In this document: positions 10,743 through 31,613 of the stretch, piece after piece
How positions within the stretch are numbered: position 1 is the first letter of the stretch
How the letters are laid out: the number at the start of each line of letters is the position of its first letter
Source: Acidobacteriota bacterium
GTDB lineage: Bacteria; Acidobacteriota; Terriglobia; 20CM-2-55-15
Assembly: GCA_022821145.1 (NCBI GenBank)
Contig: JAJEEE010000025.1
Location: 144,050 to 208,049, forward strand
Length of the DNA stretch: 64,000 nucleotides
Direction: 5' to 3'
Translations under genes and position numbers: made by a program
The notes under the pieces: model-generated
Database searches by the model: none
Told to the model about the DNA's origin: nothing
What the model saw: the letters and a program-made list of their open reading frames with translations, nothing else

Positions 10743-11678
10743 TCAAGCCGATGCGCGACGCGCGCCCGAGCGGAAATGTCGCCAACCCAGGGGCTCCAGA
10801 ATCACTTCATCGGATTCCCCGACAAGCACGATCCGATTCGAGTCGCCGGCGATGATTTCGCCGATGCGCGCGACGGAAACGCCGTCGACTTCGGACGGGA
10901 GATCGGCGGCCGTGACAAGCAACTCGTAGTCCTCCCCGCCGTGCAAGGCCATTTCGATACCGGCTCCCGGATGACAGGGTATGGATTCGCGTTCGATGCG
11001 CGCCGAGACCCCGGATTCGGTCACGATGTGCCCGAGGTCGATCGAGAGGCCGTCGCTGACGTCGATCATCGCCGTGGCCCGAGGCGCGATCCGCCGGCCC
11101 AGGCGGTGCCGCGGTTCCGGGTAGAGTTGCCGACGAATCGCGGGATCTGTCCGGGAGCCGGACTCGAGCCGCGTCAGGCCGAGCGCGGCGGCGCCGAGGC
11201 AGCCGGTGACATAGATCCCATCGCCCACGCGGGCGCCGTTCCTTCGAACGGCCCGGCCCGGCTCGACGTGCCCCATCATCGCCACGTCGACGAAGATCCG
11301 TTCCGACGACGACGAATCGCCGCCAACGACGGCGACCTCGAACACGCGGCACGCCTCCGCGGCGCCATCGAGGAAACCGTCGATCCAGCTTTCGTCGAGA
11401 TCGGCCGGAACGGCCACGGAAATGAGGCACCGGGCCGGGACCGCCCCCATGGCGCCGATGTCGCTGACGTTCGCGGCGATCGACTTGAATCCGACGGCGT
11501 CGGAAGGATGCGTGCGCCGCTCGAAGTGCGTGTTCTCGACGAGCAGGTCCGAGCACAGGACCGCCCGGAAGCCGTCGGGCGAATCGACGACCGCCGCGTC
11601 GTCGCCGATTCCGACTTCCGCGCCGGCGGCGGAGAACCGGCGGCGTATCTTCCGAACGAGCGCATCCTCGGAGTACAT
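10743..11678 (-). CDS. thiL: Thiamine-monophosphate kinase
   Basis: AIR-synthase-fold kinase phosphorylating thiamine monophosphate to thiamine diphosphate, the last step of the pathway. 311 residues from ATG 11678 (MYSEDALVRKIRRRF). Motifs: GIGDDAAVV (metal and ATP binding), SDLLVENTHF, GFKSIAANVSDIGAMGA, VGGDSSSS and IDVSDGLSIDLGHI, with ALHGGEDYELLVT near the C-terminus. It starts 4 bases after the lon stop. Pathway partner of the ThiE-like gene at 969-1505. Confidence 0.94.
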   Translation of the reverse strand: MYSEDALVRKIRRRFSAAGAEVGIGDDAAVVDSPDGFRAVLCSDLLVENTHFERRTHPSDAVGFKSIAANVSDIGAMGAVPARCLISVAVPADLDESWIDGFLDGAAEACRVFEVAVVGGDSSSSERIFVDVAMMGHVEPGRAVRRNGARVGDGIYVTGCLGAAALGLTRLESGSRTDPAIRRQLYPEPRHRLGRRIAPRATAMIDVSDGLSIDLGHIVTESGVSARIERESIPCHPGAGIEMALHGGEDYELLVTAADLPSEVDGVSVARIGEIIAGDSNRIVLVGESDEVILEPLGWRHFRSGARRASA

Positions 11679-27490: not shown

Positions 27491-28015
27491 TTATCGAAAG
27501 ACCGTCAGCAGGCCCACGATCGTCTTGGCGTCCCGGATTCTGCCGTCGGCGATCATGGCCAGAGCATCGTCGCGCCGCGCTCGGATCACCTCGATGAACT
27601 CGTCGTCATCGAGCCGTTGCGCGCTGGGAACCAGGTCGGTGGCCTCGAACAGGCGCATGCACTCGTCCGAGAATCCCGGCGCGGTATAGAAGTTGGACAG
27701 TTCCCGGATCCGGGCCGCCCTGAAACCGGTTTCTTCCTCCAACTCGCGCTTCGCCGTGACGATGGGGTCTTCGCCTTCTTCCCGCGTGCCCGCGGGCAAT
27801 TCCAGCAGTTCTTCTCCGGCGGCGTGACGGTACTGGCGGACCAGAATCACCTCGTCCGGCGCCGGAAGGGCGATGACGGCAACCGCCCCCGGATGCTCCA
27901 CGATGTCGCGCGTGACCTCCCGTCCGTCCGGATTGAGCAGCCGATCCGTCCGTACGCGTATTCGCCAACCACGAAAACCCACGCTGCTCTCCAGCAGTCT
28001 CCACGTCGCCTTCAT
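27491..28015 (-). CDS. Nudix hydrolase, ADP-ribose pyrophosphatase-like
   Basis: 174 residues. A complete Nudix box G-x5-E-x7-RE-x2-EE-x-G begins at GTREEGEDP and ends ELEEETGF. VILVRQYRHAAGEELLELPAG and the downstream FYTAPGFSDE match the ADP-sugar pyrophosphatase (NudF-like) subgroup. Start overlaps the end of the aminotransferase gene by 4 bases, so they are coupled. Substrate beyond nucleoside diphosphate sugars cannot be fixed from sequence. Confidence 0.9.
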   Translation of the reverse strand: MKATWRLLESSVGFRGWRIRVRTDRLLNPDGREVTRDIVEHPGAVAVIALPAPDEVILVRQYRHAAGEELLELPAGTREEGEDPIVTAKRELEEETGFRAARIRELSNFYTAPGFSDECMRLFEATDLVPSAQRLDDDEFIEVIRARRDDALAMIADGRIRDAKTIVGLLTVFR

Positions 28016-29223
28016 TCCTTCTCCAACTCCGCGCGAAGGGCCGCGATAAACCTGTCGACCTGCTTCTTTCGAATGATCAGCGGCGGCAGGAAGCGAAGAA
28101 CCGTGTTCCGGGTCGAGTTCGCGATGAAACCCGCTGCGATCAGGCGTTCCACGACAGGCCGCGCGGCGACGCCAAGCTCGAGGGCCAGCATCAGGCCGTC
28201 GCCGCGGACTTCCGTGGCGGCGGGCAACACCAGCAGCTCCTCCAGCCGCTGTTCGAAGTACGATCCGACGTCTCGAGCGTGATCGAGGAGGCGTTCTTCC
28301 TCAACGATCTTCAGCACCTCCAGGGCGACGCGGCACGCCAGCGGGCCGCCTCCGAACGTCGTGCCGTGAATCCCGGCGCGAATCGGATCCGCCACCGCCG
28401 CTTTCAGAAGGACGGCGCCCATGGGGATGCCGCCGGCGAGCGGTTTGGCGATGGCGATCAGGTCCGGCCGGTCCGCGTACACCGAGCCCGGCGGGAGACA
28501 TCGCTCGAACCCAAACCACCGACCGGTGCGGCCCAGGCCGCACTGGATCTCGTCCGCGATCAACGCGGCGCCGGCGGCGCGGGTGAGCTCGCGTGCGCGC
28601 CGGTAGAACGCATCCGATATCGGCCGGACCCCGCCCTCGCCCTGCACGGCCTCCAGAATGACGGCCGCGACGTCGTCCGAAAACCGGCGCTCGAGGTCCT
28701 CCACGTCGTCGAAGCCGACGAAGTCGAATCCCGGGACCAGCGGTTCGAACGCGTCCCTGTACCGAACGGGATGCGTCGCCGACAACGCCCCCATCGTCCG
28801 CCCGTGAAACGACCCCTCGAGGGCGAGCACGCGGCGCTTCCGGGGCCCGCCGCGCCCGGAATTCGCGAACAGGCGCGCGAACTTGAGGGCCCCCTCGACC
28901 GACTCCGCCCCGCTGTTCGTGAAGAAGGCTTTATCGAGTCCCGAGATCGCGCACAGCCGCTGGGCCAAGCGGCCCGCGTACTCGTGGTACATCAGGTTGG
29001 AAACGTGCAACGGGCGCTTGATCTGCTTGCGCAGAAGCCGCACGATCCGGGGATGGTTATGGCCCAGGATGTTGACGCCGATCCCGGACAGGAGATCGAG
29101 GTACCGCTTGTGGCTCCTGTCGACCAGGTACGGCCCGCGGCCGCGGTCGACGAGGATGGAGTAACGGTTGTAGGTACCGAGCAGGTGCTCCTCTTCGAGC
29201 TCTTGGACGCTTTTGAGAGACAT
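28012..29223 (-). CDS. Class III PLP-dependent aminotransferase (acetylornithine aminotransferase-like)
   Basis: 403 residues. Motifs of the ArgD/omega-aminotransferase group in order: LDLLSGIGVNILGHNHP, TNSGAESVEGALKFAR, LEGSFHGRTMGALSAT, ILEAVQGEGGV, IADEIQCGLGRTGRWF, the PLP lysine in AIAKPLAGGIPMGA, and HGTTFGGGPLACRVALEVL. It could be acetylornithine, succinylornithine or LysW-linked aminotransferase; no other arginine gene is nearby. The leader region faces the selenoprotein gene with a 222-base gap. Confidence 0.87.
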   Translation of the reverse strand: MSLKSVQELEEEHLLGTYNRYSILVDRGRGPYLVDRSHKRYLDLLSGIGVNILGHNHPRIVRLLRKQIKRPLHVSNLMYHEYAGRLAQRLCAISGLDKAFFTNSGAESVEGALKFARLFANSGRGGPRKRRVLALEGSFHGRTMGALSATHPVRYRDAFEPLVPGFDFVGFDDVEDLERRFSDDVAAVILEAVQGEGGVRPISDAFYRRARELTRAAGAALIADEIQCGLGRTGRWFGFERCLPPGSVYADRPDLIAIAKPLAGGIPMGAVLLKAAVADPIRAGIHGTTFGGGPLACRVALEVLKIVEEERLLDHARDVGSYFEQRLEELLVLPAATEVRGDGLMLALELGVAARPVVERLIAAGFIANSTRNTVLRFLPPLIIRKKQVDRFIAALRAELEKE

Positions 29224-29322: not shown

Positions 29323-29445
29323 TTGTGCCTCGGGTGCTTTCCCCCGAATCCGTCGGAAAGCTGCACCGACAATGTACGCAACGGTTCCCGCGCTCCGGCG
29401 CCGGAAATCGTAATGAGCAGACACATTTTCAGGAGGACCCCCTCA

Positions 29446-29988
29446 ATGAAAAAGGTCTTCTGGCTGTTGCCGGCCGTCATGGTGTTCTCGACGGCCACGG
29501 CGTTCCCTCAGTTGCAGGCGCCTGGCGCCGACAACACGCCGGCTGTCGGAGAACCGGCCCCCGACTTCGAGGGCCCTGCCGGAATGGGTCCCGCGACCTT
29601 GGGACTCAAGGACTTCGACGGCTACGTCCTGCTCGCGTTCTTCCCAGCGGCCTTCACGGGCGGTTGAACGCGCGAGTTCACCGAGTTCGGTGAAAGACAC
29701 GACGACTTCCAGGCTCTGAACATCGACATCGTGGGCATTTCTCGCGACATGGCGCCGGCGCAGAACGTGTTCAAGGAACAGGTCGGCGCGCAGAACGAGT
29801 TCATCAGCGACCCGTCGATGCGTGTGATCGACATGTACGGCGCGGGGCGGGACGGCGCCAACGCGCCCGCGCAGCGGTTCTATTTCCTGATCGATCCCGA
29901 CGGGACGCTGGTGTGGAAGAACGTGACCAACCAGCTCATCCCGGTGGAAGCCCTGCTCGATGAGTTGACCGAAGTCGTCCAAGGTTGA
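29446..29988 (+). CDS. Secreted selenocysteine-containing peroxiredoxin (AhpC/TSA family), in-frame TGA read as Sec
   Basis: Thiol-peroxidase-type protein whose catalytic position is encoded by TGA. From ATG 29446 (AGGAGG 9 bases upstream) the frame runs 73 codons to TGA at 29665-29667 and then continues in the same frame to TGA at 29986-29988. The first part ends FFPAAFTGG and the second begins TREFTEFGERHDD. Read together, the TGA falls exactly on the peroxidatic cysteine of PxxxTxxC (codon 74). Downstream family features continue: VGISRDMAPAQNVF, FISDPSMRVIDMYG and the conserved arginine in QRFYFLIDPDGTLVW. Residues 1-20 form a signal peptide (KKVFWLLPAVMVFSTATA), so it should act outside the cytoplasm. 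No cysteine occurs in the mature part, suggesting a one-selenol mechanism. A nonsense-mutated pseudogene is the alternative, but the hairpin after TGA argues against it. Confidence 0.85.
29665..29694 (+). promoter_or_regulatory. Bacterial SECIS-like hairpin directly after the Sec TGA
   Basis: Nine bases after TGA (29665-29667) begins a perfect 7-bp stem, TTCACCG (29677-29683) with CGGTGAA (29688-29694), closing a four-base loop AGTT (29684-29687). The loop starts 16 bases past TGA and has G as its second base. This agrees with the bacterial SECIS pattern as I know it: apical loop about 16-37 bases downstream with G among the first two loop bases. Such hairpins are bound by SelB. Confidence 0.75.
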
Positions 29989-30035: not shown

Positions 30036-31613
30036 ATGAAGATCCTCACCGCGGCCGAAATCCGGCGGATCGATCGACTGTCCCATGACAAGTACGGCAT
30101 TCCGGGAACGATCCTCATGGAAAACGCCGGCATGCGCGTCGTCGAAGCCGTCGACGGGTGCGTCGACGACCTCGACGGGGCGTCGGTTCTCGTCCTCTGC
30201 GGCAAGGGCAACAACGGCGGCGACGGCTTCGTCGTCGCCCGCCAACTGATCCAGCGCGGCGCCGCGCCCCAAGTGTTCCTGTTCGCCCGGCCCGACGCCG
30301 TCTCGGGCGACGCGCGGCAGAATCTGGACATACTCACGGCTCTCGGCCACGGGCCCGTTGTCGTCGATGACCGGGCCGCCTGGGACGAGGCCGCGTCGCG
30401 GATCGGCGAGGTCGACGTTGTCGTCGACGCCTTGTTGGGAACAGGCCTCTCGAAGCCGGTCGATGGACTGCTGGCGCGGGCGATCTCCTCGATCAACGAT
30501 GTCTTCTCGAAAGCCGCCGTCGTCTCGGTCGACGTGCCGTCGGGAAGCGCCGCCGACAGCGGGGACGTTCAAGGCCCCGTCGTCGAGGCCGACGTCACGG
30601 TCACGTTCTCCGCACTCAAACACTGCCTGGTATCTCCCCCCGCGTGCCACTTTGCGGGCGAGGTCATCGTCGCCGACATCGGCAACCCGCATCCGCTGAT
30701 CGATTCGGCGAAGGACGCCGTCGAGCTGCTCGATCCGGCATCGTTTCCCGACGCCGCGTTTCCTCGGGACCTCGACACGCACAAGGGTGACTACGGGAAG
30801 GTCCTGATCGTCGGAGGGTCGCTGGGCAAGGGCGGCGCGGCGGCAATGGCCGCTCGGGCCGCGCTGCAGTCCGGAGCGGGCCTGGTCACGGCCGCCGTGC
30901 CCCGAGGCACGCTTCCGGTGGTGGCCGGGCATACGCCCGAGGTCATGACGGAGGCGTTGCCCGAGACCGCGGACGGAACTCTTTCGGCGGAAGCGTTGCG
31001 CCGCGTCGGCAGCCGGCTGGTCGACGGCAAGTCGGTCGTCGCCATCGGACCGGGAATCGGAACACATCCCGAGACCTTCGACGCCGTGCGCGAGCTGGTG
31101 AAGGCGCTGGAGTTGCCCGTCGTCCTCGATGCGGACGGAATCAACGCGTTCGCCGGTCATGCCGAGGCATTGATCCCCGACGGTTCGGGCGCCGCGCCGC
31201 GCATCCTCACGCCGCACCCCGGAGAGATGGCGAGGTTGACCGGCGCGAGTATCGCGGAGATCCACCGAGACCGGCTCACCGTCGCCCGGGAGTTCGCCTC
31301 GGCCCACGGTGTCCACATCGTCCTCAAGGGTTTTCGCACGGTCATCGCAGGTCCGGACGGATCGGCTTTCGTGAACCCGACCGGCAACGCCGGGATGGCG
31401 ACGGCCGGAAGCGGCGACGTACTGACGGGAATGATCGCCGGGGTCCTCGGACAACCCCATCTGGGCGCCTTGGCGGAACGCATCGGCCTGGCCGTGTTCC
31501 TCCACGGTCTGGCCGGCGATCGCGCCGCGAACGAGGTCGGCGAAGAATCGATGCTGGCGACCGACATCCTTCATTTTCTTCCCGAAGCCTGGTCGGAGCT
31601 TCGCGACGCCTGA
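30036..31613 (+). CDS. nnrD: Bifunctional NAD(P)H-hydrate epimerase / ADP-dependent NAD(P)H-hydrate dehydratase
   Basis: Repairs damaged NAD(P)HX. 525 residues from ATG 30036 (MKILTAAEIRRIDRLS). The epimerase (YjeF_N) domain occupies about residues 1-215: GTILMENAGMRVVE, LCGKGNNGGDGFVVAR, VDALLGTGLSKPV and VSVDVPSGS. The dehydratase (carbohydrate-kinase-like) domain follows from about 235: KGDYGKVLIVGGSLGKGGAA, LTPHPGEMARL and NPTGNAGMATAGSGDVLTGM. Both catalytic halves look intact. tsaE follows after 3 bases, a common pairing. Confidence 0.95.
   Translation: MKILTAAEIRRIDRLSHDKYGIPGTILMENAGMRVVEAVDGCVDDLDGASVLVLCGKGNNGGDGFVVARQLIQRGAAPQVFLFARPDAVSGDARQNLDILTALGHGPVVVDDRAAWDEAASRIGEVDVVVDALLGTGLSKPVDGLLARAISSINDVFSKAAVVSVDVPSGSAADSGDVQGPVVEADVTVTFSALKHCLVSPPACHFAGEVIVADIGNPHPLIDSAKDAVELLDPASFPDAAFPRDLDTHKGDYGKVLIVGGSLGKGGAAAMAARAALQSGAGLVTAAVPRGTLPVVAGHTPEVMTEALPETADGTLSAEALRRVGSRLVDGKSVVAIGPGIGTHPETFDAVRELVKALELPVVLDADGINAFAGHAEALIPDGSGAAPRILTPHPGEMARLTGASIAEIHRDRLTVAREFASAHGVHIVLKGFRTVIAGPDGSAFVNPTGNAGMATAGSGDVLTGMIAGVLGQPHLGALAERIGLAVFLHGLAGDRAANEVGEESMLATDILHFLPEAWSELRDA

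Follow-up and report, generated by a model that had tools for sequence, protein, structure and literature searches.

A UGA-interrupted peroxiredoxin gene

Does an in-frame TGA in a peroxiredoxin-like gene of an Acidobacteriota bacterium mark a broken gene, or does it encode selenocysteine (Sec), and what kind of peroxidase would then result? We analyzed a 64-kb stretch of DNA (the window) from a draft genome of 4.18 Mb (99% complete, 89 contigs). The frame at 29446-29988 contains a single internal TGA, at codon 74; downstream of it, 106 sense codons lead to a terminal TGA. The interruption lies in PAAFTGG-U, confirming the original prediction that TGA breaks an otherwise intact AhpC/TSA frame at the peroxidatic position. 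That prediction also held that the mature protein lacks cysteine, leaving Sec as its only redox residue, and this is correct for the chain, as the frame has no Cys codon. The features of the locus, and of other candidate selenoprotein genes in the same genome (G000), are collected in Table 1.

Table 1. Features of the peroxiredoxin locus (window coordinates) and other candidate selenoprotein genes of genome G000 (contig coordinates).
Feature	Location	Strand	Details
Class-III aminotransferase-like gene	28012..29223	-	divergent, upstream; named by sequence reading
Shine-Dalgarno-like AGGAGG	29431..29436	+	read in the sequence; 9 nt 5' of ATG
CDS, exported (predicted) Sec-peroxiredoxin	29446..29988	+	180 residues; predicted Sec at 74; TGA stop 29986-29988
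Predicted signal peptide MKKVFWLLPAVMVFSTATA	29446..29502	+	cleavage likely after ATA, judging from the sequence
Active-site motif P67-A-A-F-T71-G-G-U74 (PxxxTxxU)	29644..29667	+	all 29 aligned homologues keep T71 and C/U74
Predicted Sec-encoding UGA, codon 74	29665..29667	+	TGA in 30/49 homologues, TGC/TGT in 19/49
bSECIS hairpin (candidate)	29677..29694	+	TTCACCG-AGTT-CGGTGAA; 7-bp stem; starts 9 nt after TGA; UGA-to-loop 16 nt
Arg144 codon	29875..29877	+	invariant in the 29-homologue alignment A3
Nnr (NAD(P)H-hydrate epimerase/dehydratase-like) gene	30036..31613	+	co-oriented, downstream; ORF open from 29985; named by sequence reading
TPGUT AhpC/TSA gene (L055)	C21:29853-30233		weakly fitting hairpin
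TPVUT AhpC/TSA gene (L056)	C9:62507-62887		weakly fitting hairpin
WUPNC AhpC/TSA gene (L058)	C22:8579-8968		
WUPYC AhpC/TSA gene (L059)	C70:102421-102888		hairpin fits well; looks exported
NUPFC AhpC/TSA gene (L062)	C9:33759-34121		hairpin fits well; looks exported
Sec-FdhA (formate dehydrogenase alpha-like) (L126)	C67:3745-4521		TGA in the classical motif RLUHGPTVASLAATFGRGAMTN

The GGAGG of the Shine-Dalgarno-like site is retained in a same-genus relative. Scans around the gene detected neither a promoter nor a terminator, and the 64-kb window contains no tRNA genes and no Rfam match. Nnr is listed purely as a genomic neighbor of the peroxiredoxin gene. A search of plasmids for relatives of the peroxiredoxin returned only weak archaeal redoxins. 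When the whole window was scanned for coding-like frames bridged by TGA and followed by a SECIS-like hairpin, only the site at 29665 and one at 10745 on the minus strand were recovered; the latter has a weak 5-bp hairpin and is probably an ordinary stop.

Selenocysteine machinery and conservation of the UGA codon

The genome encodes selA (545 bits; on the contig of the window, about 14 kb upstream of it), selB (380 bits) and selD (360 bits; read as the Cys form), as well as a tRNA-Sec (selC) with a UCA anticodon. The selB gene was above cut-off in all 20 related genomes tested. Assignment of the UGA to Sec, as originally predicted, thus agrees with the presence of all four sel genes and with the alignment of homologues, which have either Cys or Sec at codon 74.

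TGA is kept in all eight syntenic orthologues of the GTDB family (L025-L031 and L076, including that of the window), whose proteins are 55-95% identical. The divergent aminotransferase gene adjoins the peroxiredoxin gene in all eight, and the co-oriented Nnr gene does so in those whose contig reaches that far. The same-genus relative encodes a protein with 95% identity and likewise has TGA at codon 74. Between these two species dN/dS is 0.019/0.40 before the TGA and 0.021/0.14 after it, and these ratios, both well below 1, indicate purifying selection across the codon; dN is about 0.02 on either side. The 48 nt starting at the TGA have no base differences between the two species; this invariance, with the drop in dS from 0.40 to 0.14, is as expected if the RNA is also constrained.

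Three further proteins (L032-L034) have TGC at the Sec column. They are encoded at other loci and form their own clade (support 100/99), and are therefore paralogues, Cys forms of the protein. One genome (G006) carries both the Sec and the Cys form. In two others (G009 and G010; L108 and L109) the aminotransferase-Nnr junction is intact, spanning a few tens of bases with no peroxiredoxin gene. We considered replacement of Sec by Cys in place within the family and rejected it, given that the TGC members lie elsewhere, that G006 has both forms and that the junction in G009 and G010 is empty. Judging from gene order, the entire Sec gene appears to have disappeared from these two genomes, or never to have entered them.

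The hairpin downstream of the UGA codon

The published bSECIS model specifies a loop of 3-9 nt, a stem of 4-16 bp, a G within the first two bases of the loop, a UGA-to-loop distance of 16-37 nt and an MFE of at most -7.5 kcal/mol (PMC13188914). The perfect 7-bp hairpin with an AGTT loop that had been noted 9 nt after the TGA satisfies all these constraints and, as described below, covaries. The loop G is at the second position, the energy is -9.5 kcal/mol including flanks, and the spacing is at the lower limit of the model. Across the window, a perfect, rule-fitting stem of at least 7 bp comes after 1.3% of TGA trinucleotides, and by single-sequence folding the 48-nt fold is unremarkable relative to shuffles (z -0.89). 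Taken alone, the hairpin is modest to weak evidence for Sec.

Because folding of the single sequence does not single out the hairpin, we used comparative covariation. Among nine Sec homologues from the GTDB family of the window (f1) and another family (f8), five of the seven pairs show two-sided changes and 92% of cells are paired. The covariation score was reached by none of 500 shuffles and exceeds that of all slid versions. Pairing is preserved in the stem of f8 (CTCTCTG-GGTT-CAGAGAG) despite changes at several positions; the hairpin is absent from the f1 Cys paralogues. Across the 49 homologues, a fitting stem with at least five Watson-Crick pairs follows 25 of 30 TGA codons versus 3 of 19 Cys codons (Fisher p = 4e-6, a value that overstates independence since the homologues are related). 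The hairpin region has no match in Rfam. We know of no Rfam family for bacterial SECIS elements of such type, so this null result says little. Conservation, covariation and the sel genes together raise the predicted Sec reading far above chance.

These data bear on three other readings of the codon. TGA differs from TGC and TGT by a single third base, and a mutation or base-call error of TGC could in principle have produced a pseudogene or an apparent one. We regard this as extremely unlikely and effectively refuted by the conservation of TGA in independent genomes, as the codon recurs in eight syntenic orthologues that have diverged to 55-95% protein identity, dN/dS is low on either side of it and a covarying hairpin follows. 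Bacterial Sec insertion competes with termination, and the UGA might mostly terminate translation to yield a short exported peptide of 73 residues, with read-through being a side effect or a means of regulation, for instance when selenium is scarce. This is very unlikely: purifying selection acts on the 106 codons that follow the TGA, these codons encode the invariant Arg and the remainder of the fold, and the 73-residue product would miss most of the domain. Reading of UGA as another amino acid in this organism, such as Trp, has a negligible probability, as we found no evidence in its support and rejected it on three grounds: Cys is the sole aligned alternative, including TGC in the close paralogues; tRNA-Sec(UCA) and the full sel set are present; and the gene's own stop is TGA. 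The main interpretation holds, in that 29446-29988 is predicted to be a real selenoprotein gene with Sec inserted at UGA codon 74.

Family, fold and active site

With U read as C, the product matches Pfam AhpC-TSA (PF00578; 1e-24, 87.3 bits relative to a curated cut-off of 26) and also Redoxin. Arg144 is presumably the expected peroxiredoxin active-site arginine, a role that we assign from knowledge of the family. An AlphaFold2 model built from a 29-row alignment has a mean pLDDT of 89.1 and a pTM of 0.81, with low confidence only in the leader (residues 1-30), and thus shows a confidently predicted thioredoxin-like Prx fold. The best PDB matches of the predicted fold are the Bcp/PrxQ-like peroxiredoxins 3hjp, 5enu and 5epf, and other peroxiredoxins are also among the nearest structures. 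The Bcp/PrxQ-like proteins align with TM-scores of 0.70-0.75 on query length and are also among the best sequence matches, but share only 26-29% identity and use Cys rather than Sec, and the window protein lacks a second cysteine. From its sequence, the product is most likely an AhpC/TSA peroxiredoxin with predicted peroxidase activity.

The chain lacks the resolving Cys of a 2-Cys peroxiredoxin, and no Sec orthologue of family f1 contains any cysteine. The peroxidatic chalcogen alone is present, as in the 1-Cys type (here 1-Sec). Like the 1-Cys peroxiredoxins of the Prx6 type and AhpE, the protein has one chalcogen residue and requires an external reductant; it differs from them in using Sec, in its predicted export and, as far as a sequence search shows, in subfamily.

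Sec-peroxiredoxins carrying TxxU form an established family in bacteria (PMC13188914, PMC1794560, PMC1088965), and PrxU of Eubacterium acidaminophilum is a bacterial Sec-peroxiredoxin (Soehling 2001, as cited in PMC13188914). The window protein shares with PrxU (NF040737) the AhpC/TSA fold, PxxxTxxU, a peroxidatic Sec and an in-frame UGA with a bSECIS element, but has a predicted export signal and no cysteine. All matches to NCBIfam models are sub-threshold, so these models would not call the product a selenoprotein; the PrxU equivalog scores 50.3 bits against a cut-off of 270, and we therefore do not file the product as PrxU.

Predicted export and the lack of cysteine among relatives

The leader has a positively charged start, a hydrophobic core (Kyte-Doolittle 12-residue maximum of 2.18) and A-X-A. 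It is common to the orthologues, in which A-X-A or a similar cleavage motif persists despite diverged sequences. On these features, the peroxiredoxin is most likely exported via the general secretory route and cleaved after about residue 19.

The original prediction considered an exported, cysteine-free selenoperoxiredoxin to be uncommon, and this stands only in part. Of 13 further high-scoring matches in 396 genomes of the phylum, 12 have the TGA, and a hydrophobic leader is present at the N terminus of nearly all, suggesting that exported Sec-peroxiredoxins are widespread and common in Acidobacteriota. What does remain restricted is the lack of cysteine: all Sec members of f1 and f8 are Cys-free, and here the trait is limited to these two lineages, which cluster together (support 98/87). 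Beyond f1 and f8, exported Sec relatives mostly contain a single Cys, located some 99-105 residues past the Sec. The predicted new element is thus the exported, Cys-free, 1-Sec branch, of which we found no description in the open-access literature.

The exported Sec-peroxiredoxins elsewhere in the phylum (L112, L114-L124, L038, L071 and others) share the leader and TxxU with the window protein and belong to the same wider clade, and the Cys that they carry, in contrast to it, is a possible resolving Cys. Most also have a bSECIS-like hairpin, usually located 23 nt after the UGA (for example, ATATCA-GGC-TGATAT; found at L038, L039, L046, L049, L112, L114-L119, L121 and L124), compared with 16 nt in f1 and f8. 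Within a single protein family, the SECIS-like element occupies positions 7 nt apart.

Proposed mechanism

We consider it highly probable, from sequence comparisons, that the gene encodes an AhpC/TSA selenoprotein exported by the general secretory route, with peroxidatic Sec at UGA codon 74. SerRS, SelA and SelD would make Sec-tRNA(UCA), which SelB, bound to the hairpin with its loop 16 nt downstream, would deliver to the UGA. After export and removal of the leader from the preprotein, Thr71 and Arg144 would hold the Sec selenolate, which may reduce H2O2 or organic hydroperoxides outside the cytoplasm, forming selenenic acid. As there is no cysteine in the chain, an internal Se-S bond cannot form and an external reductant or resolving partner would be needed to restore Sec in a 1-Sec cycle. 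Candidate reductants include exported proteins of the thioredoxin-like or TlpA type and UxxC selenoproteins, as well as small thiols and sulfide. The protein is most likely a 1-Sec peroxiredoxin, exported and probably reduced by an outside thiol partner.

Other arrangements deserve mention. The system could be mainly a selenium-based peroxide relay outside the cytoplasm, in which the selenenic acid is reduced by exported UxxC AhpC/TSA selenoproteins or by sulfide, with no Cys thiol in the peroxidase itself; we view this as an unlikely though plausible variant. The candidate UxxC partners (C70:102421 and C9:33759) are encoded in the same genome, and sulfide has been proposed as a reductant for Prx6-type 1-Cys enzymes (PMC12697902). 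The cleavage site is predicted from sequence, and the N-terminal segment could instead escape cleavage and anchor the protein in the membrane, or the protein could stay inside, such that no soluble enzyme would be exported. The short charged start, hydrophobic core and A-X-A-like motif conserved across diverged orthologues argue against this, and we judge it unlikely. It is rather improbable that the Sec protein is not mainly a peroxidase and serves as a selenol-based oxidoreductase or a peroxide sensor oxidizing an extracytoplasmic partner. The chain without a resolving Cys would fit such a role, and the genome encodes further AhpC/TSA selenoproteins, with UxxC, that look exported and could be the partners, but PxxxTxxU and the invariant Arg form the peroxide-binding set of true peroxiredoxins (PMC13188914).

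An exported 1-Sec peroxiredoxin of this kind would mean that a bacterial lineage exports a peroxidase relying on Sec alone, and poses a testable question, namely how an enzyme outside the cytoplasm regenerates its lone selenol. Aerobic life is considered to disfavor selenoproteins given that Sec is easily oxidized (review, PMC13188914). Genes of this class are likely split at the UGA by standard annotation and probably mis-annotated as broken.

Other candidate selenoprotein genes in the genome

Surveys list four selenoproteins for the Acidobacteriota phylum (PMC1794560), and three are given for the acidobacterium of PMC12013277. Our results suggest that the phylum holds more Sec-peroxiredoxins than these surveys list. 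Of the 16 AhpC/TSA loci in the genome studied here, 6 carry a lone TGA, always at the position of the catalytic Cys (TxxU in three, UxxC in three), and the same-genus genome likewise has six such genes. A simple scan did not find a clear SECIS in every one of the six. A second FdhA-like gene, on contig C19, has no TGA. Two AhpC/TSA genes (L070 at C21:25126 and L055 at C21:29853), one of which has an in-frame TGA, lie no more than 6 kb from the tRNA-Sec gene (C21:23952-24045).
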